Origin: Solemya velum gill symbiont
Lineage (GTDB): Bacteria; Pseudomonadota; Gammaproteobacteria; Chromatiales; Chromatiaceae
Length of the DNA: 64,000 bases
NCBI RefSeq assembly: GCF_000787395.1
Contig: NZ_JRAA01000001.1
Coordinates: forward strand, 124,001 to 188,000
Direction of reading: 5' to 3'
Part shown: piece by piece, positions 14,537 through 29,598 of the stretch
Layout: each line of letters begins with the position of its first letter
Numbering within the stretch: the stretch's first letter is position 1
Program-made: the position numbers and the translations under genes
The notes under the pieces: generated by a model
The model's input: only the letters and a program-made list of their open reading frames with translations
Told to the model about the DNA's origin: nothing
Databases searched by the model: none

Positions 14537-15093
14537 TTAGCCTTTCATATCGCCAGGATTGATTGTCTTATTTTTGAGCAACCGGGTTGCAGCCTCGAAA
14601 TTGACACCTGGGCTAAATAAAAATCCTTGAATATAGTTACATCCCAAGGCCTGGACTACGTGTAGCTGGTCCTGCGTTTCAACGCCCTCTATTATTACTG
14701 ACATTTTCAGTGTTTTACCAATATTCACAATACTCGCAAGAATTCTTTCTGCTTTTTCGTTGCTGTTCAATTCAGTTATAAATGACTTGTCAATTTTAAT
14801 TCTGTGAAACTCAAAGTTCTTTAGCCTGGATAGTGAAGACTGATTTGTTCCAAAGTCATCGATCGAAAACTTACAGCCAATATCAATTATCTTGTTGAGC
14901 AAGTCCTGAATCTGGAATGAGTTTTCAGCAAACAGAGATTCCGTGATCTCGAATTCAACATTGCCTGGTACTATCTTGTAGCGACTGATTGTTTCTTCGA
15001 TTTTTTTCGCCAGGTCCGGATCATCAAACTGCCTGACAGACAGGTTGACAGCAATGGGAACACTTGTACCCACTTGTTGATTCCATAATGAAA
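14537..15093 (-). pseudogene. EAL-domain C-terminal fragment of a Cache-GGDEF-EAL protein
   Basis: This is the 3' third of a gene read from 19043 down to 14537 and broken by two IS30 copies. It encodes the rest of the EAL phosphodiesterase domain, with NLSVRQF, EITES, DDFGTNQSSLSRL, IKIDKSFI and the conserved VIIEGVET motif near the end. Across the deleted IS the frame joins as KDIS-LWNQQ, normal for EAL domains. A GTG at 15073 could start translation of the fragment, but without the EAL motif itself it would be inactive. Confidence 0.85.
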
Positions 15094-16163
15094 CGCGGAT
15101 TCAACTCACTAGTGCAACGGATGGGTTAATCCCGAAAAATACTTGATTGGGCGTTTTAATGCCAAGACATTTTCGGGGACGATTGTTCAGTTTATTCATC
15201 ACCTGGTTGATTTCCGCCTGAGTGATGGTTGTAAAGTCCCGATGCTTTGGGAAGTATTGGCGAATGAGTCCATTGGTGTTCTCATTCAAGCCACGTTCCC
15301 AGGAGGCATAGGGATGGGCAAAGAAGAACCTGGCACTGAGGCCTTTAGCGATGGTCTCGTGACCGGCGAATTCCTTACCATTATCTGAGGTCAGCGTGTG
15401 AACGCGGCCGGCGATGGGTTTGAGCAGTTTGAGGATAGCGCTGGTGACGTTGCTGGCGGTTTTTCTCTCCACCTTATGGATGAGCGTCAATCGGGATTTA
15501 CGCTCGGTGATTGAAACGATGGCCTGTTTGTGGCCTTTTCCGATAATGGTATCAAGCTCCCAATCACCGAAGCGTGAACGCTCATCAACCACGGCAGGAC
15601 GTTCATCGATGCTGACTCGGTTAATCAGTTGCCCTCGGCGGCTATAGCTGCCATAGCGCTTTCGACGCTGCTTCTGGCAACGCAGGTGGCGGTATAGGTT
15701 ACCGCCCATGGATTTGTTCTGGAGAACGTACTGGTAAATCCACTCATGAGAGATTTGAATGTCAGCCTCATTGCACAGCCACAGGCTGATTTGTTCCGGA
15801 CTCCAGTCCTCGCGCAACAGATGCTCGACTCGCTCCCAGTGGGTAGTGGCAATACGGGGCTGGCTCTTGCTCTGACGGCGCTCTACAGACAGCCGATGGG
15901 CCTGTTTGGGGCGATAGCCGCGCAAGCCACGGTTACGCCTCAGTTCGCGGCTGACAGTGGATTTGTGGCGCCCAAGTATCTTGGCTATCTCTGTTTGATT
16001 GTGACCTGCTTTCATCAGTGCCTGAATCTGGTATCGTTCTTCCTGGGTAAGCTGCGTGTACATGGTGCTCCTCTAACTTTGGTCGGTGAGAGAAGCTACC
16101 TATGCTACCGCAGCTTGCCCTCTAACCAACTCTGTTGAGTTGCACTTGGAAATTGAATTCACG
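15094..16163 (-). mobile_element. IS30-family insertion sequence, copy 2
   Basis: A 1070-bp copy of the same element as at 1653, in reverse orientation. It is flanked by the 3-bp direct repeat AAA (15091-15093 and 16164-16166). It lies inside the EAL-coding region of the GGDEF/EAL gene, in the same orientation as that gene. Removing it with one repeat copy restores the frame. Confidence 0.95.
15101..16063 (-). CDS. IS30-family transposase (copy 2)
   Basis: A 320-residue DDE transposase, identical in protein sequence to the copies at 1753 and 17548, with an intact N-terminal helix-turn-helix and all three catalytic acids. The identity of all three copies points to recent spread of the element in this genome. 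Confidence 0.96.
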   Translation of the reverse strand: MYTQLTQEERYQIQALMKAGHNQTEIAKILGRHKSTVSRELRRNRGLRGYRPKQAHRLSVERRQSKSQPRIATTHWERVEHLLREDWSPEQISLWLCNEADIQISHEWIYQYVLQNKSMGGNLYRHLRCQKQRRKRYGSYSRRGQLINRVSIDERPAVVDERSRFGDWELDTIIGKGHKQAIVSITERKSRLTLIHKVERKTASNVTSAILKLLKPIAGRVHTLTSDNGKEFAGHETIAKGLSARFFFAHPYASWERGLNENTNGLIRQYFPKHRDFTTITQAEINQVMNKLNNRPRKCLGIKTPNQVFFGINPSVALVS

Positions 16164-17447
16164 AAATATCTTTGCAGACAGAATCCAGAATTAATTCGCC
16201 CAAGGGTATAATTTGACCTGAGTTTTCCGCTAAAGGAATAAACTGTCCAGGTGGGATAACTCCTTTTGTCAGGTGTTGCCAGCGAACTAAAGCTTCAAAC
16301 CCCTGAATCGAGTAGTTGTTTACATCAATTATAGGTTGGTAGTGAATGATAAATTCGTTCTTCTTGATTGCCTCTCCGAGGATATGAGTCAGTTCCACGC
16401 GCTCATTAAGGTCAGCACGCATTTGAGGTTGATACCACTGAAAAGTCGTATTGTTTTCCTTCTTGGCGGCATACATGGCCAGGCCTGCACACTTCATTAA
16501 ATCAGACCTGTTTTTTGCATCTTGCGGATAACAAGAGAGTCCACAACAGCAGTCAATACTCAAGGTGTCTTGTATCACCTGGTAACTTTGTTTGAGTCTT
16601 CCCCTGAGGAGTGCCACAAGCGATTCTGCTTTTTCTTTGGTGACATCTGCATTGAAAACAATTGCAAACTCATCACCACCTATTCGTGACACCAGTCCCT
16701 TTTTAGACATGGCATCAATAAGACGATTGGCAACATGCTGCAGAAGCTCGTCTCCATGAGCATGACTCCAGTGATCATTTACATCCTTAAAGTCATTCAA
16801 GTCGAGCAATGCAAAAATAAATGACTCTTGTTTATTGATCTTCTCTTGTAAATATTTTTTGAGAAGATTGCGATTAGCCAGGCCTGTTAATGGGTCATGT
16901 TGTGATTGATACAATAATTCACTGTTTTTGTCCTGCAAAGCATGAGTCATATTATGGAATGACAGGCTCAACTCATATTGTTCACGCGTGTATGATCTGA
17001 CAGGCTCTGGCGCAGGCTGCATCTCATTTACTTCAAAGTGATTTGCCAGTTCAGCCAATTCCTGGGATGGACGAGCCATTTTTTTTGCCAGAAACCAGCT
17101 AATTAGCATGGCAAGCGCTATGCCAAGAACTCCTACGCCCAGGGTAGCCAGCTTAATAAATGCTATGTTCTCTTCAAGCTCTGAAACAGGCTGAGGGACC
17201 ATCACTCCCCATCCTGTTTCCTGAACAAATGAAAAGCCGGAAATCATGTCAGCTTTTTTCGCTGGCGAATAAAACTCCTCTACACCAATTTCTCTATTCA
17301 TCATGCGTTTGACAGCCGAGACTTTAGAGATGTTTTTGACCTGTAATTCCCATTCCGGCATAGGGTGGGCTAAAACATTTCCGGTTTGATCCACAATAGC
17401 AGCATGTCCGAGCTTTCCAAATTTAACCTGGGCCTGCAATTGAGAAA
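16164..17447 (-). pseudogene. Middle fragment (sensor end, TM, GGDEF, start of EAL) of a c-di-GMP enzyme
   Basis: This is the central third of the broken 786-residue protein. It contains the end of the periplasmic Cache-like sensor, a second membrane helix (near LATLGVGVLGIALAMLISWF), a HAMP-like linker, a complete GGDEF domain with RIGGDEF, and the first part of the EAL domain with the EALVRW motif. The GGDEF active site is intact, so a fragment translated from here could still make c-di-GMP, although it would lack the first membrane anchor. IS30 copies sit at both edges, each at its own AAA target. Confidence 0.85.
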
Positions 17448-18517
17448 CGTGAATTCAATTTCCAAGTGCAACTCAACAGAGTTGGTTAGAGGGCAAGCTG
17501 CGGTAGCATAGGTAGCTTCTCTCACCGACCAAAGTTAGAGGAGCACCATGTACACGCAGCTTACCCAGGAAGAACGATACCAGATTCAGGCACTGATGAA
17601 AGCAGGTCACAATCAAACAGAGATAGCCAAGATACTTGGGCGCCACAAATCCACTGTCAGCCGCGAACTGAGGCGTAACCGTGGCTTGCGCGGCTATCGC
17701 CCCAAACAGGCCCATCGGCTGTCTGTAGAGCGCCGTCAGAGCAAGAGCCAGCCCCGTATTGCCACTACCCACTGGGAGCGAGTCGAGCATCTGTTGCGCG
17801 AGGACTGGAGTCCGGAACAAATCAGCCTGTGGCTGTGCAATGAGGCTGACATTCAAATCTCTCATGAGTGGATTTACCAGTACGTTCTCCAGAACAAATC
17901 CATGGGCGGTAACCTATACCGCCACCTGCGTTGCCAGAAGCAGCGTCGAAAGCGCTATGGCAGCTATAGCCGCCGAGGGCAACTGATTAACCGAGTCAGC
18001 ATCGATGAACGTCCTGCCGTGGTTGATGAGCGTTCACGCTTCGGTGATTGGGAACTTGATACCATTATCGGAAAAGGCCACAAACAGGCCATCGTTTCAA
18101 TCACCGAGCGTAAATCCCGATTGACGCTCATCCATAAGGTGGAGAGAAAAACCGCCAGCAACGTCACCAGCGCTATCCTCAAACTGCTCAAACCCATCGC
18201 CGGCCGCGTTCACACGCTGACCTCAGATAATGGTAAGGAATTCGCCGGTCACGAGACCATCGCTAAAGGCCTCAGTGCCAGGTTCTTCTTTGCCCATCCC
18301 TATGCCTCCTGGGAACGTGGCTTGAATGAGAACACCAATGGACTCATTCGCCAATACTTCCCAAAGCATCGGGACTTTACAACCATCACTCAGGCGGAAA
18401 TCAACCAGGTGATGAATAAACTGAACAATCGTCCCCGAAAATGTCTTGGCATTAAAACGCCCAATCAAGTATTTTTCGGGATTAACCCATCCGTTGCACT
18501 AGTGAGTTGAATCCGCG
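17448..18517 (+). mobile_element. IS30-family insertion sequence, copy 3
   Basis: A 1070-bp copy in forward orientation, opposite to the interrupted gene, flanked by AAA direct repeats (17445-17447 and 18518-18520). Copies 2 and 3 are in inverted orientation with 1284 bp between them. Each has its own target duplication, so they look like two separate insertions into one gene rather than a mobile composite unit. Confidence 0.95.
17548..18510 (+). CDS. IS30-family transposase (copy 3)
   Basis: The third 320-residue copy of the transposase in this window, with the same helix-turn-helix and DDE residues and no lesions. It is transcribed against the surrounding GGDEF/EAL gene. Confidence 0.96.
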   Translation: MYTQLTQEERYQIQALMKAGHNQTEIAKILGRHKSTVSRELRRNRGLRGYRPKQAHRLSVERRQSKSQPRIATTHWERVEHLLREDWSPEQISLWLCNEADIQISHEWIYQYVLQNKSMGGNLYRHLRCQKQRRKRYGSYSRRGQLINRVSIDERPAVVDERSRFGDWELDTIIGKGHKQAIVSITERKSRLTLIHKVERKTASNVTSAILKLLKPIAGRVHTLTSDNGKEFAGHETIAKGLSARFFFAHPYASWERGLNENTNGLIRQYFPKHRDFTTITQAEINQVMNKLNNRPRKCLGIKTPNQVFFGINPSVALVS

Positions 18518-19043
18518 AAATATACCCGGTTTCAATTTCTGCTATGAGAATACTGTTATCCAGAACGATAGGAGTAATTATTATTATTGTGGGTTGTCCA
18601 TTACTGTTAGTTTGAACGGGTAAGAAAAGAGTGCGATCAGTTTCAGCATTGGCAATTACTGCTTCTAATTGTGCCGCTGTAAGGGGAGGGGGCTCGGAAC
18701 CATTTTCAGTAGCTATACTGATAAGTTGTTCCACGTTGTTATTGAAAACTCTTATGCTGGTAATATTTTGTGAGCGAAGTAATCGATTGTTACTCTCATC
18801 GAGCTCATCCAGTGGCATGGTTGAATAATGCTCAAGAATTGATGCTGTATCCTGCGCATACCTGGAAAGGGCTAATGTAATATTTTTCGCAACCAGAAGA
18901 TGCTTTTTTTCTACTGCCTTGTATTCACTCTCTCGAGCAGAATCGACGACCCACCATCCGAGTAGTAAGACAGGAATGACAGACATTATGGAGAAGGCCA
19001 GGAAAAGAACGAATTTTAGACTTGGTTTCTCAAATAAATCCAC
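18518..19043 (-). pseudogene. N-terminal sensor fragment of the Cache-GGDEF-EAL protein
   Basis: This is the first third of the broken c-di-GMP gene. An N-terminal membrane helix (about residues 11-33, VLFLAFSIMSVIPVLLLGWW) is followed by the start of a periplasmic Cache-type ligand-binding domain. The gene sequence proper runs to 18518, after which IS30 copy 3 takes over. Joining 19043-18518, 17444-16164 and 15090-14537 gives 786 uninterrupted codons plus a stop, so the gene was intact before the insertions. Confidence 0.82.
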
Positions 19044-19210: not shown

Positions 19211-19720
19211 TCACTCTATCTTGATATATGCAAAACCTTCATTCTGCAGTTCTGCGATCTGAACCACGCCAGATGGTACTGAATCAACCCCTTCATAAAG
19301 CTTTTCAGCATCCAGGTTGATTTGTGAACGCGTGATGTCACACAGTTCGAGCTTCACTTCCTGAACCGATTGCAGTGACTCAAGGCGCCCCCTCAGGTTG
19401 TCGCGACGTTCGGCCAGTTCAGCATCTTCAGCAAATGGGGTACCCTCCAGCTTGTCTCCTGTCACGAAACGAATTCCATGCGCAACAAAGACAATCCTGA
19501 CATCGTACTCAACGAGTTCGTTCTGGTAATGGGTGACCATGTTGTTAATGCTGGTCAACATGGCGCTGAAGCGGCGTGGATCGGAAAAGTCGGCATGGTA
19601 AACGACCTTGGCGACATCATCATCGGCACTAGCAGAGGAGGGGAGGATAAAGAGACTGCAGAGTAGTGAGAGGATGAGCCAGTAGAGCGGGGTGCGGGTA
19701 AAGGGTTTCGTCAGTTTCAT
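19211..19720 (-). CDS. Secreted DsrE-like protein 1
   Basis: A 169-residue protein. A signal peptide of about 32 residues (cleavage near ASA-DDD) sends it to the periplasm. The rest has the pattern of the DsrE/DsrF fold: a KVVYHADFSDP opening strand, a central GIRFV strand, a single conserved Cys (Cys127, ELCDIT) and a C-terminal GFAYIKIE. The family carries sulfur on such a cysteine, but the substrate of this branch is not known. It resembles the two other secreted proteins at 23462 and 24101 and the sensor domain of the anti-sigma factor at 25382. An ATTGGGAT motif lies about 40 bases upstream of the start. Confidence 0.82.
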   Translation of the reverse strand: MKLTKPFTRTPLYWLILSLLCSLFILPSSASADDDVAKVVYHADFSDPRRFSAMLTSINNMVTHYQNELVEYDVRIVFVAHGIRFVTGDKLEGTPFAEDAELAERRDNLRGRLESLQSVQEVKLELCDITRSQINLDAEKLYEGVDSVPSGVVQIAELQNEGFAYIKIE

Positions 19721-20433: not shown

Positions 20434-22836
20434 ATGAAAAAAGTTATTATCATCGGAGGTGTTGCTGGTGGTGCATCTTGTGCAACACGTCTTCGCCGTC
20501 ATAACGAAGAAGTTGATATTCTCCTCCTCGAGCGTGGACCCTACGTCTCTTTTGCCAACTGTGGCCTGCCTTATTACATAGGCGACGTTATCAAAAATGA
20601 AGAGGATCTCTTTCTGGCAAATGTCGAGCTGTTCAAAGAGCGATTCAGAATAGATGCGCGTATCAATTCCGAGGTAACCGATGTTGATCCTGACAGTAAA
20701 ACTGTTACGGTCCGTAACCTGGAAAGCGGGGAGAGCTATTCGGAAGAATACGACGAACTGGTACTAGCACCGGGCGCGAGACCTGTACGTCCGCCTCTTC
20801 CCGGTATAGATGTCGATGGCATATTTTCGTTACGCAGCGTACCCGACAGTAATCAAATCAAGCAATGGATTCATGACCGAAATGTGAAACGTGCCGTTAT
20901 TATAGGCGGTGGATTCATCGGTATCGAAATGGTCGAGAACCTGGTTGAGCTCGGAATTCATACAACCCTGGTAGAGCGTAACCCACAAATTCTTCCACCT
21001 CTCGATCCGGAAATGACTGTCCCCCTGCGCACAGCACTACATCAACATGGTGTTGCCGTTTATCTAGGTGAAAGTGTTAACGGGTTTGAACGAGCGGGGG
21101 AGTTAACCACGGTCAAGACCGAAAGCGGGAAATCTTTTCAGGCTGAACTCGTAATACTTGCGATTGGCGTCATGCCGGAAAATGAACTGGCCAAAAGCGC
21201 TGGTCTTACACTTGGTCCACGTGGTCACATCATTGTTGACAAGAATCTGCGCACCAGTGATTCGCATATATATGCAATTGGTGACTGTATCGAGGTGAAA
21301 AATATTGTCTCTGGCAGCAAGACAGCTTTAGCACTGGCGGGTCCGGCAAATCGCCAGGGTCGTATCGTTGCTGACATGCTTGCAGGTCGTGGACGATTTT
21401 TCCGGGGTGTTCAAGGTACAGCGGTTTGTGGTCTTTTTAATCAGACTGCAGCCATGACAGGTCTCAATGAGAAATCACTCAAAGAGCAGGTCCGAATCGA
21501 ATACAGCGTTGTATACGCTCATCCAACCAACCATGTCGGTTACTATCCTGGTGCCGCTCCGATCCAGTTCAAACTGATTTATGTTAAATCCGACGGGCGT
21601 GTTCTTGGGGCACAGGCTGTGGGAGAGGCCGGAGTGGAACGACGTATTGATGTCATATCGATGGCAATCCAGATGCACGCAACAGTGTTTGATCTTGAAG
21701 AGTCAGAGCTCTGTTATGCGCCGCAATACGGAGCGGCAAAGGATCCTGTCAATGTCATCGGCATGATTGCTGCCAATGAAATGCGTGGTGACTTGTCTAT
21801 TACTCACTGGAATAAAATGGGTAGTGGCGGAGCCGTTGTCCTTGATGTGCGCGATGCCAACGAAGTTGCTGCTCACGCATTGCCAATTGCAGTACACATC
21901 CCTTTGAACGATATTCGTGACCGACAGGATGAATTGCCAAAAGATAGTGAGATTCATGTCTCATGTGCAGTTGGTTCGCGCGCATACAATGCTGTTCGTT
22001 TGTTGCGTAACCTGGGCTTTCAGGCGAACCTGCTATCTGGTGGAGAGAAAACATTCGAACACCTGAGATCATGCGCATCTGATGATGCTGTTTCCATGGA
22101 GCATAAGGACAGGATGGACTTCCTGCTCTCTTGGGAAGTGATGCGGGATACGCTGACTGGTGAGAACGAGGATGTAGAACAGGTCCTGGCCATCCTGAAA
22201 AATCCAAAAGTATTTTATCGCTTGCCGCTTGGAAATATTGTCAAGGCGATCCGCCGAATGGAAAGCGTTGATGTCAAAAGCGGCGAAGCCGTGATGAACC
22301 AGGGAGACACGGGAGATTTCTTTTATATTATTCGCAAGGGAACGGCCGAAGTTTGGCAGCAAGGTCTCTATGATAACGAGCAGAAGTTAGTCGCAAAACT
22401 GGAAACAGGTGATCACTTCGGTGAAGAAGCCCTGGTTACTGGAGGTGCTAGAAACGCGTCGGTTAAAATGACCAGCAACGGAAACCTGCTGCGTTTAAAC
22501 AGGGAGGATTTCCAGGAGTTGATCACGCAGCAAACGATTGAAGAGGTCGATATTGATAAAGCGCATCAACTCCTGTCTCAGGGCTGCAAAATGCTCGATG
22601 TTCGTTACCAGGAAGAGTACGAGGAATCACATGTGCCAGGTGTACAGTTGATTCCATTACCTGAACTCCGTAATCGTCTGGATGAGCTTGAGCCGGATAC
22701 ACAATATATAGCCAGTTGCCTCTCCGGAAAGCGCAGCGCTGTTGCGGCGATGATTTTAAAGCAGCATGGGTTCAATGTACTGGTGCTTGAGCATGGTCTC
22801 CGAGACTGGCCATACGAGATGGTGTCTGAGTTTTAG
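20434..22836 (+). CDS. CoA-disulfide reductase-like flavoprotein fused to rhodanese, cNMP-binding and rhodanese domains
   Basis: An 800-residue fusion. Residues 1-450 are a pyridine nucleotide-disulfide reductase of the CoA-disulfide/polysulfide reductase branch. They have the FAD-binding GGVAGGASCATRL, the single active Cys43 in FANCGLPYY, the NAD(P)H-binding IIGGGFIGIEM and the FAD-binding AIGDC. Residues 465-545 form a rhodanese domain with active-loop Cys511 (SCAVGSR). Residues 585-700 form a Crp-like cyclic-nucleotide-binding domain (GDHFGEEALVTGGARNASV). Residues 705-796 form a second rhodanese domain with Cys762 (SCLSGKRS). Reductase-rhodanese fusions are known, but the inserted cNMP domain and second rhodanese make this an unusual build. 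It probably reduces persulfide/polysulfide on CoA or glutathione in the cytoplasm, under cNMP control (inference). Confidence 0.9.
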   Translation: MKKVIIIGGVAGGASCATRLRRHNEEVDILLLERGPYVSFANCGLPYYIGDVIKNEEDLFLANVELFKERFRIDARINSEVTDVDPDSKTVTVRNLESGESYSEEYDELVLAPGARPVRPPLPGIDVDGIFSLRSVPDSNQIKQWIHDRNVKRAVIIGGGFIGIEMVENLVELGIHTTLVERNPQILPPLDPEMTVPLRTALHQHGVAVYLGESVNGFERAGELTTVKTESGKSFQAELVILAIGVMPENELAKSAGLTLGPRGHIIVDKNLRTSDSHIYAIGDCIEVKNIVSGSKTALALAGPANRQGRIVADMLAGRGRFFRGVQGTAVCGLFNQTAAMTGLNEKSLKEQVRIEYSVVYAHPTNHVGYYPGAAPIQFKLIYVKSDGRVLGAQAVGEAGVERRIDVISMAIQMHATVFDLEESELCYAPQYGAAKDPVNVIGMIAANEMRGDLSITHWNKMGSGGAVVLDVRDANEVAAHALPIAVHIPLNDIRDRQDELPKDSEIHVSCAVGSRAYNAVRLLRNLGFQANLLSGGEKTFEHLRSCASDDAVSMEHKDRMDFLLSWEVMRDTLTGENEDVEQVLAILKNPKVFYRLPLGNIVKAIRRMESVDVKSGEAVMNQGDTGDFFYIIRKGTAEVWQQGLYDNEQKLVAKLETGDHFGEEALVTGGARNASVKMTSNGNLLRLNREDFQELITQQTIEEVDIDKAHQLLSQGCKMLDVRYQEEYEESHVPGVQLIPLPELRNRLDELEPDTQYIASCLSGKRSAVAAMILKQHGFNVLVLEHGLRDWPYEMVSEF

Positions 22837-23461: not shown

Positions 23462-23914
23462 TTAGATACGGATATAAGTACAGCCCTCTTTCGACAGCTC
23501 CAATATACGAGCAACTGCCCCTGGTTCAACGATATCGACACCCTCAAGAATTACTAGTGCTGTACCGGTTTTTTTCGTGATTCCCTTGATTGTTGCTGCG
23601 CAAGCGCTGAACTTTGTGCCTCCTCCCATTGTTTGCTCGCTTGACACTGCCAGGCTCTGGATGCGTTTTGTCTCCGGGCTTCCCTCGGACAGGAGTTTCA
23701 ATCCCGGACCCTGGGCAATGATTTCAACGCGAACAGCATCAGCTCCCAGCTGTTTGGGAATATTGTTGGCTATGTTGATTGCCTGCTTAAATGCTTTCGG
23801 ATCATCCTGAGGGACATGGACCATTAAACATTGTGGCTCCTCTGCCTGGGCAGAAAAGGCCACTCCCATTAGCAGAAGCAGTGAAAGTGAAATGTTGCTG
23901 ATTACAGACTTCAT
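23462..23914 (-). CDS. Secreted DsrE-like protein 2
   Basis: A 150-residue protein. The signal peptide has its predicted cleavage after AQA at residue 24. The mature domain follows the same pattern as its neighbours: an opening strand LMVHVP, a glycine-rich GPGLKLL strand, a conserved Cys105 in FSACAATIK, and the C-terminal CTYIRI. An extra Cys29 at the mature N-terminus could form a disulfide or hold a second thiol; this is unique among the paralogues here. It is convergent with the lipoprotein gene. Confidence 0.82.
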   Translation of the reverse strand: MKSVISNISLSLLLLMGVAFSAQAEEPQCLMVHVPQDDPKAFKQAINIANNIPKQLGADAVRVEIIAQGPGLKLLSEGSPETKRIQSLAVSSEQTMGGGTKFSACAATIKGITKKTGTALVILEGVDIVEPGAVARILELSKEGCTYIRI

Positions 23915-24100: not shown

Positions 24101-24565
24101 TCAGGGTTTAATATAGGTATATCCCTGTGCCTGAAGGTGTGCCAGCTCGGCAACGCCGCTAGGAACAATTGCACTTTCATCTGCATCATAGAGCTGATCA
24201 AGTGAGATCTTTTTTCCCTTCAGCGTATTTGCACAGATGCTAAAAGAGACATTCTGGTCTTTCAGGCCGGCTATTTTTGCCTGAATCTCAGGTGTTGCGT
24301 TGGCATGCTTCATCTTCGGTACGCTTGCAAGTTCATCTGGCTCAAGAAGCAGTGAAAGCCCGTTGCCATGCATGACAACTTTTGCATCCAGATTTTCAGC
24401 ACCAACTGCGTTGATGTGGTTCTGGATGTTACGCAGCGCACCGGCCTGTGCCTTGGGATTGTCGTAATTGATATGGTAGACAACCTTCTGTTTGCCGTAA
24501 TCAGCCTGCACATTCGTGGCGAAGAGCACCGCGACTGCCATTAGCAGAGTTGTTAATAGTTTCAT
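24101..24565 (-). CDS. Secreted DsrE-like protein 3
   Basis: A 154-residue protein. The signal peptide cleaves after about residue 21 (VQA-DYG). The mature domain has KVVYHINYDNP, a GNGLSLLL strand, Cys111 in the motif SICANT and the C-terminal GYTYIKP. I chose the ATG at 24565 because AGAGGAAG precedes it at good spacing and the signal peptide begins there; the reading frame is open 35 codons further but lacks such signals. It is divergently arranged from the ECF sigma factor gene, with a TATTGGG palindrome between them, so the two may share control. Confidence 0.85.
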   Translation of the reverse strand: MKLLTTLLMAVAVLFATNVQADYGKQKVVYHINYDNPKAQAGALRNIQNHINAVGAENLDAKVVMHGNGLSLLLEPDELASVPKMKHANATPEIQAKIAGLKDQNVSFSICANTLKGKKISLDQLYDADESAIVPSGVAELAHLQAQGYTYIKP

Positions 24566-24607
24566 CTGTTCTTCCTCTATTTCTTTGTTGGTTAAACTCA
24601 ATACACG

Positions 24608-24627
24608 TATTGGGAATAAGCCCAATA
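24608..24627. promoter_or_regulatory. Palindromic TATTGGG-N6-CCCAATA, candidate regulatory site
   Basis: A perfect 7-bp inverted repeat about 43-62 bases upstream of the DsrE-like gene 3. Its forward half gives ATTGGGAATAA, which recurs exactly at 24777-24787 in front of the sigma gene. It may be an operator or the -35 region of an ECF promoter; the sequence alone does not decide. Confidence 0.4.
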
Positions 24628-24776
24628 ACGGGACGACATTGGCACTTCTTTTGGTCCAATCGTCTTTCACAGGGCTGATATAAGGTGTAGATTCAGGTCT
24701 GTGGAGTGTCGAATTATCGATTCCCGTACTAAGGCAGATGCACTCGGCACAGTTTTATTCCAAAAAAATGACAATA

Positions 24777-24787
24777 ATTGGGAATAA
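24777..24787 (+). promoter_or_regulatory. ATTGGGAATAA motif before the ECF sigma gene
   Basis: An exact 11-base repeat of 24609-24619, about 47 bases before the chosen sigma start. The position suits a -35 element of an autoregulated ECF promoter. A related TTGGG-N6-CC pattern precedes DsrE-like gene 1 (minus strand, near 19763-19751). Confidence 0.35.
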
Positions 24788-24833
24788 TCCGGCGACTTCT
24801 GCATCTCTCTTAGAGAGAGGAGGAAAAATCACA

Positions 24834-25385
24834 ATGGTTATCATTGACAAGTTGTGCGCTGCACGAGCGCTCAAACACCGTATTGCAGAGCGGCGCGGAC
24901 GGCTTTTTAGGGTGGCCTACGCCTGGTGCCGGGACCGGCATCTTGCCGATGACCTGGTTCAAGAGGCTATCGAGAGGGCAATCAACAAGTGCCATCAGTT
25001 AAAAGATCCTTCTCGCCTCGATAGCTGGCTCTATTCAGTGCTGAATAACTGTTGGCGAGAGCATCTCAGGATGCGGCGAGAGCATGTAGAGTTAAATGAC
25101 GACGATTTGGTATCCACTTGCTGTCCTGAACAACAAAATATCTCAGGAGAGCTTTCTGCACGGGTGTTGGTGCTCATAGGATTCTTGCCTGACAATCAGC
25201 GCCAGGTGCTTACGCTCGTGGTGCTGGAAGAATTCAGTTACCGGGAAGTTGCAGAAATTCTGGATATTCCTATCGGAACCGTTATGAGCCGCCTATCCAG
25301 GGCGCGTAGATCTCTCTCTGATCAGCTGAGCAGTGCCAGTGAGCCTGTCACTGAATCGCGTTCCTACCTGAGGAGGGTGAAATGA
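24834..25385 (+). CDS. ECF sigma factor paired with DsrE-type anti-sigma factor
   Basis: A 183-residue sigma factor. Region 2 spans about residues 20-85 (ADDLVQEAIERA, DSWLYSVLNNCWREHLRM) and region 4 about residues 115-165 (YREVAEILDIPIGTVMSRLSRARR). I chose the ATG at 24834 because AGGAGG lies 10 bases before it; the frame is open further upstream to 24738 without a comparable site. Its end overlaps the anti-sigma gene by 4 bases (ATGA). Its probable regulon includes itself and the nearby DsrE-like genes; this rests on gene order and a shared TTGGG motif and is inference. Confidence 0.92.
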   Translation: MVIIDKLCAARALKHRIAERRGRLFRVAYAWCRDRHLADDLVQEAIERAINKCHQLKDPSRLDSWLYSVLNNCWREHLRMRREHVELNDDDLVSTCCPEQQNISGELSARVLVLIGFLPDNQRQVLTLVVLEEFSYREVAEILDIPIGTVMSRLSRARRSLSDQLSSASEPVTESRSYLRRVK

Positions 25386-26101
25386 ACAAGGAATTATACT
25401 GGACTGAAGATGAGCTGAATCGCTTCATCGATGGTGAATTAAGCAAGGAAGAGAGGCGCAGGCTGGAACTTCACTTGGATGAAGACCCTGCGTTCATCGA
25501 GAAAGTCCGAGAATACCGCTCGATTGACCAGGCATTGCGTGATGCATACGATGAGGTTGAGTCCCCTCTGCACCGCCCCGTCACAAGATCAATGTGGGCG
25601 AATAGCGGACGAAGCCTTGCACTGATGGTCTTGCTGCTTCCCCTGGGATTTCTTGTCGGCTGGGGCATGCATGCGAATTTCAGTGCTCCGAATATACACA
25701 CACCTCTTACAAGCGGGATCAGCCTTCCCGTCAAAGGCCTTGAGCGTAACAATACCGTGTTGCACATCGATGTGGACGAACAGGAGGCAGCCAATGACTT
25801 GCTTGATCGTGTCGAGACCATTCTGACGACTTATGCAGATGATGAAATTCAAGTAGATGTGGTTGCTAACGCAGCAGGTCTTAATTTACTTCGTGTAGAT
25901 AAGTCAGCGGTTGCAAACCGGGTAAGCCAAATGATGGATAAATATGACAATCTGATGTTCCTGGCTTGTGCGAACACCATCAGCCGACTGACTGAAAAAG
26001 GGGAAGAAGTTGAATTGATTGACCGCACTCATGCCGGGGAAACTGCGATAGATCACGTTGTAAACAGGCTCAGCTCTGGATGGACATATGTGAAGATTTA
26101 A
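25382..26101 (+). CDS. Membrane anti-sigma factor with periplasmic DsrE-like domain
   Basis: A 239-residue protein. The N-terminal 60 residues have the anti-sigma layout (LNRFIDGELSKEERRRLE and following helices) but none of the His/Cys zinc ligands of the ZAS type. One membrane helix follows at about residues 78-96 (LALMVLLLPLGFLVGW). After a linker, residues 124-239 match the secreted DsrE-like neighbours: opening strand TVLHIDVD, AAGLNLL, Cys196 in FLACANTI and the C-terminal GWTYVKI. With the N-terminus inside, the DsrE domain faces the periplasm. I infer it senses a sulfur species or a thiol change through Cys196 and releases the sigma factor encoded just upstream. Confidence 0.88.
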   Translation: MNKELYWTEDELNRFIDGELSKEERRRLELHLDEDPAFIEKVREYRSIDQALRDAYDEVESPLHRPVTRSMWANSGRSLALMVLLLPLGFLVGWGMHANFSAPNIHTPLTSGISLPVKGLERNNTVLHIDVDEQEAANDLLDRVETILTTYADDEIQVDVVANAAGLNLLRVDKSAVANRVSQMMDKYDNLMFLACANTISRLTEKGEEVELIDRTHAGETAIDHVVNRLSSGWTYVKI

Positions 26102-28471: not shown

Positions 28472-29278
28472 TTAGTTCATCGCCGGTTTCAGCTCCAGTG
28501 GAATGATGGATTCAGGAGCTGGAGGGCGATAGCCCAGCGAGCTATGTGGCCGCTTGGTGTTGTAATGTTTTCTCCATTGTTCAATGATCACTTTCGCTTC
28601 GTGTAGCGTGTAAAAGACCTCACCATTGAGCAATTCATCCCTGAACCGGGCATTGAAGCTCTCGCAGTAGCCGTTCTCCCAAGGTGAGCCTGGTTCGATG
28701 TATGCCGTTTTAGCGCCGACAGCAGCGATCCACTTCCTCACGGCTTCTGCAATAAACTCGGGGCCGTTATCCGAACGGATATAGGCCGGTACCCCACGCA
28801 GAATGAACAGGTCAGTCAGCACATCAATGACATCGGCTGAGTTCAACTTACGTTTCACCCGGATTGCCAGACATTCCCGACTGTATTCATCAATCAGGTT
28901 CAATGTCCGGAAGGCTCTGCCATCATCGGTTCTATGGTGGACAAAGTCGTAGGACCAGACATGATTTCTGTATTGTGCACGGAGTCTGATACAAGAGCCA
29001 TCATTGAGCCATAAACGGCCACGCGGCTTCTGCTTGGCAGGTATTTTCAGCCCCTCTTGTCGCCATAACCGCTCGACACGCTTGTCGTTAACTTGCCAGC
29101 CTGCCTCTCTCAGGAGAGCGGCGATACGACGGTAACCATAACGGCCATACTCCCTTGCTAGAGCGATCATATCAGCGACAAGTCGTGTTTCATCACGACG
29201 CCCCTGTGGAATACGGCGCTGGGTTGAGCGATGTTGTCCGAGTACACGGCAAGCCCTGCGCTCGGAAACAGCCATCAT
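28472..29278 (-). CDS. IS3-family transposase OrfB (catalytic domain)
   Basis: A 268-residue integrase-core protein. The DDE residues are D in VWSYDFVHHRT, D in IRSDNGPEFI and E in GSPWENGYCESFN. Upstream helices (SERRACRVLGQHRST, YGYRRIAALLREAGW) match the IS3 HTH_21 region. The frame is open upstream of the first ATG to the orfA overlap, so the working product is probably an OrfAB fusion made by frameshifting at 29326-29332. Confidence 0.93.
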   Translation of the reverse strand: MMAVSERRACRVLGQHRSTQRRIPQGRRDETRLVADMIALAREYGRYGYRRIAALLREAGWQVNDKRVERLWRQEGLKIPAKQKPRGRLWLNDGSCIRLRAQYRNHVWSYDFVHHRTDDGRAFRTLNLIDEYSRECLAIRVKRKLNSADVIDVLTDLFILRGVPAYIRSDNGPEFIAEAVRKWIAAVGAKTAYIEPGSPWENGYCESFNARFRDELLNGEVFYTLHEAKVIIEQWRKHYNTKRPHSSLGYRPPAPESIIPLELKPAMN

Positions 29279-29319
29279 GCAACAAACGTTTTCGATACAG
29301 GCCCTGCGACGCGAGGGGC

Positions 29320-29598
29320 TCAGAAGTTTCCCTTGGCAGCCTCCGACAGAATCTGCTTATCCAGTGTCAGATCAGAAACGGCCTTGCGCAAACGTTCATT
29401 CTCCTTCTGTAGCCGTTTCAGTTCTTTTAACTGGTCAATCCCCATCCCACCGTACTTTTTGCGCCAGCGGTAGTAAGTCTGCTCAGTGATGCCAATTTCG
29501 CGGATCGCATCGATGCGGGCAGTGCCTTGTCCAACCAGGACTTCAACTTGCCGCAGTTTCTGGACGATTTCTTCCGGTTTGTGTCGCTTGATTCCCAT
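29320..29598 (-). CDS. IS3-family transposase OrfA (HTH)
   Basis: A 92-residue DNA-binding protein with a helix-turn-helix at about residues 10-45 (AIREIGITEQTYYRWRKKYG) followed by a leucine-zipper-like helix (about residues 58-82, LKELKRLQKENERLRK). This is the standard OrfA of IS3 elements of the IS407/IS2-like type. The stop is reached just after the slip site, and OrfB continues in the -1 frame. Confidence 0.93.
   Translation of the reverse strand: MGIKRHKPEEIVQKLRQVEVLVGQGTARIDAIREIGITEQTYYRWRKKYGGMGIDQLKELKRLQKENERLRKAVSDLTLDKQILSEAAKGNF
29326..29332 (-). other. Programmed -1 frameshift site GGGAAAC
   Basis: Read on the minus strand, the heptamer is G GGA AAC in the orfA frame, a classic X-XXY-YYZ slippery sequence. 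It lies directly before the orfA stop codon. Slipping back one base continues into the orfB frame without a stop and gives an OrfAB fusion transposase. Confidence 0.75.

Follow-up and report, generated by a model that had tools for sequence, protein, structure and literature searches.

The window, i.e. the whole 64-kb stretch of symbiont DNA analysed here and within which all coordinates are given, carries on its forward strand a gene (25382..26101) for a 239-aa anti-sigma factor with a predicted external DsrE-fold domain. The cytoplasmic anti-sigma domain occupies residues 1-57 (25382..25552) and is of the zf-HC2 type without zinc ligands; residues 8-34 match Pfam zf-HC2 with 27.4 bits for a cut-off of 22.2. 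It is followed on the same strand by a single membrane helix at about residues 78-98 (25613..25675), with the N-terminus predicted to lie inside, and by the DsrE-fold domain at residues 122-239 (25745..26098). Hydropathy detects one hydrophobic stretch, peaking at residues 78-96, and the AlphaFold2 model displays helices up to residue 57 and a helix at residues 75-99 that corresponds to the membrane helix. Cys196 (codon 25967..25969, forward strand) is the sole cysteine of the protein and lies within the motif C-A-N-T, and the C-terminal end reads G-W-T-Y-V-K-I. A sequence-only reading of this DNA had described an anti-sigma N-terminus joined to one membrane helix, together with Cys196 in its motif and this C-terminal end; the zf-HC2 match and the lone hydrophobic stretch agree with the former, and both motifs are present in the translated ORF.

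The partner ECF sigma factor is encoded immediately upstream on the forward strand (24834..25385), in an ORF that overlaps that of the fusion by 4 bases. It matches Pfam Sigma70_r2 and r4_2, and NCBIfam equivalogs only below their cut-offs. Its start is inferred: the mechanical ORF begins at 24738 and the likely initiation codon is the ATG at 24834, preceded by a Shine-Dalgarno-like stretch.

Three secreted DsrE-like proteins are encoded nearby on the reverse strand. Gene C (24101..24565; Pfam DsrE 40.1 bits) is assigned a start at 24565 on the basis of the signal peptide of its product, within a mechanical ORF at 24101-24670; gene B (23462..23914) follows it on the same strand, and gene A (19211..19720; 33.1 bits) lies further off. 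The post-helix part of the fusion resembles these three neighbours, with BLAST E-values of 3e-10, 1e-7 and 0.018 in a four-sequence comparison and shuffle z-scores of 16.8, 12.3 and 6.4, the real score being reached by 0, 0 and 1 shuffles per 500. The earlier claim that the external domain repeats the pattern of the secreted proteins is thereby upheld.

Other genes of the window deserve mention. In an 800-aa protein (20434-22836) encoded next to the DsrE genes, a CoA-disulfide-reductase-like part is joined to two rhodanese stretches and a domain for cyclic-nucleotide binding; the protein is a candidate persulfide-handling enzyme. Two protein-identical copies of a 320-aa transposase, which we take to be IS30-like, stand in opposite orientation (15101-16063, reverse; 17548-18510, forward) and seem to interrupt a sensor-GGDEF-EAL gene, leaving it in three parts (14537-19043). 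At 28472-29598 there is an insertion element of two frames, presumably IS3-like, whose transposase is of the rve type.

Structure of the external domain

The AlphaFold2 model of the fusion, built from 19 relatives, has a mean pLDDT of 81, and the ten-residue blocks of the C-terminal domain range from 87 to 97. MTH1491 (1L1S) is the top Foldseek match of this model (3.7e-10) and DsrE itself (2hy5_A) is matched at 3.7e-4; the eight matches with E<=0.001 comprise only DsrE-type proteins and uncharacterised ones of this kind. Alignment with VIA-align gives Z 18.9 against 1L1S (rmsd 1.7, 110 aligned), Z 13.1 against 2hy5_A (rmsd 2.5, 110 aligned) and Z 13.0 against TusD, the best non-DsrE fold reaching only Z 7.0; the list is filled by the DsrE domain and is uninformative on the anti-sigma part. 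The initial assignment of this region to the DsrE fold thus withstood structure prediction.

The family sequence profile reaches 1L1S at E 1.1e-19. Pfam DsrE (PF02635) matches two of the three secreted neighbours, gives no match to the window fusion at E<=1 and matches 3 of 19 members of the fusion family at E<=0.01. Because PF02635 fails to match while the profile reaches 1L1S, we describe the external part, as modelled, as a DsrE-fold domain of the MTH1491 type and not as a Pfam DsrE member. In the model, Cys196, a possible counterpart of DsrE-Cys78, closes a strand and precedes a helix, and hhalign pairs it with the cysteine of a DsrE from the same genome, in a non-significant match.

The fusion family

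The sequence-only reading had pointed to other genomes as a place to look for the same fusion, and the build is indeed kept there. We collected 71 distinct fusions (the window copy, L034-L052 and L054-L122, deduplicated by their last 90 residues), leaving out a copy cut at a contig start and L046, which has no N-terminal match. Cys196 and Trp234 are both invariant in all 71, and Gly166 and Gly233 are each kept in 69. A clear membrane helix is detected in 69 of 71 fusions. Positive charge is more abundant on the N-terminal side of the helix in 69, with the opposite bias in one and a tie in another; therefore, the DsrE domain should be outside. Relatives with as little as 22% identity have the same build, so the fusion is neither a chance event nor an orphan. 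The family is thus conserved in its architecture, in its partner sigma gene and in having a single external cysteine.

The cysteine content of these proteins bears on the kind of signal they could perceive. HxxxCxxC is the zinc motif of the zinc-binding anti-sigma (ZAS) subfamily, e.g. RsrA/ChrR. It occurs in 0/71 fusions, which rules out zinc-redox sensing of this kind. A more general thiol-redox sensor, in which Cys196 would form intermolecular disulfides or respond to envelope-stress oxidation and the DsrE fold would be a mere scaffold, seems to us highly improbable. A lone periplasmic cysteine could pair between molecules, and one thioredoxin-like gene carries a site of the promoter-like motif described below, but exactly one cysteine follows the membrane helix in 70/71 fusions, so that a second external cysteine is absent there, the zinc motif is missing, and the identified targets are sulfur-oxidation genes.

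A match to the fusion was obtained in 26 of the 92 relatives searched, and near-full-length copies at 19 places in 16 genomes, that of the window included. Among named genomes, the closest belongs to a gill symbiont of Solemya elarraichensis, and its copy of the fusion is 89% identical. In a class-wide sample, 116 of 369 genomes contain matches and 66 of them a full-length fusion, among the matches listed. The phylum-wide sample yielded matches in 17 of 398 genomes at a stricter limit; full-length fusions among the matches listed there were confined to the symbiont and two other genomes of the same class, the remainder covering chiefly the DsrE part. A plasmid search returned 4 weak partial matches to the external domain only. 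Within the class of the window, the fusion is spread across many families (36 family tags in 60 fusion genomes), a relative of a clam gill symbiont being among the carriers.

Genomic context

A sigma gene lies upstream of the fusion on the same strand in 67/71 cases by script and in 68/71 if L096, whose sigma gene is inside an over-long frame, is counted. The other three cases missed by the script correspond to a contig edge (L034), to a weaker sigma match downstream (L041) and to a locus with none in 1.6 kb (L039). Secreted DsrE genes are frequent companions as well: one is found within 3 kb of the fusion in 49/71 cases, and 53 of 54 such nearby proteins have a cysteine at the column of Cys196.

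A further secreted protein of 428-538 aa is encoded at 22 of 69 loci (one copy being cut by a contig end); it adjoins a DsrE gene 19 times and is found 3 times where no DsrE was detected. It models as a beta-barrel with a mean pLDDT of 72, and its nearest solved folds are porins, OprP among them; the one member scanned against Pfam (L099:5191-6564, of a family also present at 21 other loci) gave no match. This porin-like protein beside the secreted DsrE genes may admit sulfur compounds. A search of the symbiont genome with the porin-like profile found nothing, an empty answer that shows little.

A common promoter-like sequence

The sigma genes of the family share a promoter-like motif, GGAATAA-N14/15-CRTCT. 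The word pair GGAAT/CGTC occurs at a fixed spacing upstream of 35 of 67 sigma genes, whereas any word pair in shuffled upstream regions was found at most 5 times; shuffles were relied on because the reverse-strand control rereads the same sites and is uninformative. A fixed-spacing promoter model missed the window site and was set aside for a flexible one, with which the motif exceeds the 99th percentile of shuffled sequences upstream of 64/67 sigma genes, a result that is partly circular because the model was trained on these upstream regions. The word-pair count and the DsrE and soxB tests reported below are free of this circularity.

The region that separates the sigma gene from DsrE-like gene C contains the two best sites of the window, in divergent orientation and both matching the pattern exactly. 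One precedes the sigma/anti-sigma operon (24781..24806, forward strand; score 20.0) and the other, the second best, precedes gene C (24736..24761, reverse strand; score 15.9); the next-best score anywhere in the 64 kb is 12.8. Gene B has no promoter-like site of its own (score 5.9). The same arrangement holds in relatives: the motif is found before 24/28 divergent DsrE genes at a score >=9 (21/28 at 14) vs 2/20 co-directional ones (0/20 at 14), and before 2/6 of those otherwise placed. Divergent DsrE genes need their own promoter, and the split of 24/28 vs 2/20 fits this need. The motif is the putative promoter recognised by the partner sigma factor.

The close association of sensor and secreted DsrE genes could also reflect a physical partnership. 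The secreted DsrE-like proteins of the regulon would then form mixed oligomers with the sensor domain and lock or unlock the switch, as RseB does by binding RseA, with sulfur loading the secreted proteins rather than the sensor. Such docking would suit the proximity of the genes in 49/71 cases, the motif before 24/28 divergent DsrE genes and the organisation of DsrEFH as a hexamer of DsrE-fold subunits (PMC3397948). We nevertheless find it unlikely, as docking alone does not require the invariance of Cys196 in 71/71 sensors and no secreted DsrE gene was detected within 3 kb of 22/71 fusions, some of these loci being short.

Candidate targets in relatives and in the symbiont

In 20 carrier genomes, the strict pattern identifies 51 sites vs 14 for a reversed control. 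Fifteen precede sigma genes, 6 secreted DsrE genes, 3 soxB, 2 soxX and 3 sulfur transporters of PF04143, while a porin-like and a thioredoxin-like gene account for 1 each; the other 20 have no assigned target or are chance-like. The SoxB, SoxX and transporter assignments were confirmed by NCBIfam or Pfam. The PF04143 (YeeE/TsuA-like) transporters with the motif upstream belong to three genomes (L148:264-1508, L152:317-1453 and L172:984-2255). Two genomes (G041 and G042) also encode secreted stand-alone DsrE proteins (L032 and L157) that resemble the sensor domain more than most do; their genes stand apart from the switch genes and carry the same promoter motif.

The association with soxB was assessed with a model trained on sigma upstream regions only, applied to the sense strand up to 6 kb upstream at a score >=14. 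The sample comprised 60 of 65 fusion genomes (that of the symbiont being looked at apart and four left out) and 40 of 85 fusion-free genomes, i.e. genomes with no full-length fusion among the matches listed. A site was present upstream of soxB in 24/60 fusion genomes vs 2/40 fusion-free ones (Fisher 5e-5), and within ~500 bp of it in 19/60 vs 0/40; on the opposite strand the counts were 4/60 and 1/40. Counted by family, the site occurs in 16/36 fusion families vs 0/21 fusion-free ones, the two positive fusion-free genomes (G419 and G120) belonging to families that include fusion carriers. No site of at least 14 was found upstream of soxB in 36/60 fusion genomes. Many of the upstream stretches of fusion genomes are shortened by contig ends, which works against the enrichment. 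The soxB gene itself is present in 65/66 fusion genomes vs 85/303 others, as raw counts that ignore phylogeny; presence was defined by a best E < 1e-110, giving 150 genomes, compared with 148 counted over the family cut-off.

The predicted regulon, consisting of secreted DsrE, SoxB, SoxX and sulfur transporters, independently supports a sulfur signal. This signal could in principle be sulfite, which is the proposed one for the ECF sigma factors RpoE4 and SigE (PMC3511301, PMC6527743); the sox genes would then respond as sulfite makers. A sulfite sensor is nonetheless decidedly unlikely in our view: the predicted targets pertain to thiosulfate oxidation, sulfur transport and secreted DsrE, and no sulfite dehydrogenase gene was identified in the subset of targets scanned.

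The genome of the symbiont was scanned with strict and relaxed patterns. The strict pattern gives 5 sites, two of them in the window and the other three against long coding frames; the relaxed one gives 15, including the same two. Among the other 13, L283 (16.8) and L279 (15.9) reach the score of the DsrE site of the window, but they are positioned against open frames of 128 and 734 aa and are not closely followed by a gene-like frame. Two further candidates, L287 (13.8) and L285 (11.0), are intergenic, the latter preceding a thioredoxin-like frame. A high score and a suitable position coincide only at the two window sites, and the 1.5 kb examined upstream of the symbiont soxB contains no site, the best score in that locus being 7.7. 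A wide regulon in this genome is therefore not supported, and the circuit may here have shrunk to the sensor plus its DsrE partner.

A proposed model for periplasmic sulfur sensing

The architecture, the fold, the invariant cysteine, the operon and the shared motif, enriched upstream of DsrE and sox genes, are supported by the computation. The suggestion of the sequence-only reading, that a sulfane-sulfur or thiol state is sensed directly in the periplasm and passed to an ECF sigma factor, is in part supported. The interpretation that we favour, and hold to be rather probable, is that the gene pair encodes a sensor of periplasmic sulfur together with the ECF sigma factor that it gates, as a switch for sulfur oxidation. 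In the resting state, the fusion would hold the sigma factor at the membrane through its cytoplasmic domain. Upon the appearance of reduced or sulfane-sulfur compounds in the periplasm, Cys196 of the DsrE-fold domain would be sulfurated or bound, and the change would cross the single membrane helix, either directly or via cleavage of the anti-sigma factor, to free the sigma factor. Sigma binding, the signal compound, the sulfur on Cys196 and the transmembrane step are the parts of this scheme that we infer. The freed sigma factor would then activate its own operon and the divergent gene for a secreted DsrE-like protein and, in many relatives, also those for the porin-like protein, the Sox enzymes and YeeE/SoxT-like sulfur transporters. 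Such a switch may be how its sulfur-oxidising carriers sense sulfur outside the cell.

In favour of this scheme, DsrE-Cys78 of the Allochromatium vinosum DsrEFH complex binds sulfur (PMC3397948). An archaeal DsrE3A reacts with tetrathionate to yield a cysteine thiosulfonate (PMC4175335). Against it, according to the available text on DsrEFH, neither thiosulfate nor glutathione persulfide could serve this complex as a direct sulfur source (PMC3397948). The donor may therefore be a protein, hence the idea of a relay. We put forward tentatively, as a possible though doubtful form of the signal, that sulfur-loaded secreted DsrE-like proteins pass a sulfur atom to Cys196. These carriers would be loaded by periplasmic thiosulfate oxidation, and the cell would read the charge state of its periplasmic sulfur-carrier pool; a charged pool would lead, via the ECF sigma factor, to more carriers, importers and Sox enzymes.

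The sensing of inorganic sulfur by sulfur oxidisers is described as little known (PMC10451225), and how regulators sense external sulfur as poorly understood (PMC11582611). The family presented here provides a candidate for direct sensing in the periplasm, together with a single residue to test, its partner sigma factor, a promoter-like motif and a set of predicted sox targets. If the periplasmic sulfur sensor holds true, thiosulfate oxidation would gain a control branch based on an ECF sigma factor, a group of secreted DsrE-fold proteins would acquire a function, and parts for a sulfur biosensor would become available.

Relation to known systems

RseA-type anti-sigma factors carry a sigma-binding domain at the N-terminus, a single membrane helix and a sensing part that is external. 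The fusion has the same layout and differs in its external part, modelled as a DsrE fold with one invariant cysteine. No description of a DsrE-fused anti-sigma sensor was found among the papers listed from an open-licence library, in agreement with the initial statement that no sensor of such build had been described. The ECF sigma/anti-sigma pair is of a known kind, and the DsrE-fold sensor domain is apparently undescribed.

In functional terms, the nearest systems are RpoE4/RpoE1 of Sinorhizobium meliloti (ECF26) and SigE of Starkeya novella, sulfite-responsive ECF sigma factors that likewise belong to sigma/anti-sigma pairs tied to sulfur compounds (PMC3511301, PMC6527743). These sigma factors differ in that they control sulfite-oxidising enzymes, and the available portions of these reports mention no DsrE-type sensor domain, a distinction drawn from the published descriptions (PMC3511301, PMC6527743).

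Genes for thiosulfate oxidation are also controlled by SoxR, SoxT1B-SoxR and TspS/TspR (PMC10451225, PMC11582611, PMC12194929). As far as the accessible text of these sources goes, SoxR is a cytoplasmic repressor (PMC10451225), SoxT1B-SoxR a transporter-coupled signalling system (PMC11582611) and TspS/TspR a sigma54-dependent two-component system (PMC12194929), and none corresponds to an ECF anti-sigma factor bearing such a DsrE-type sensor. Finally, DsrEFH, TusBCD and the MTH1491-type proteins have the modelled fold of the external domain of the fusion, and a conserved cysteine that may correspond to Cys196. DsrEFH is described as cytoplasmic (PMC3397948), whereas the DsrE-fold domain of the fusion is predicted to stand outside the membrane, borne by an anti-sigma factor.
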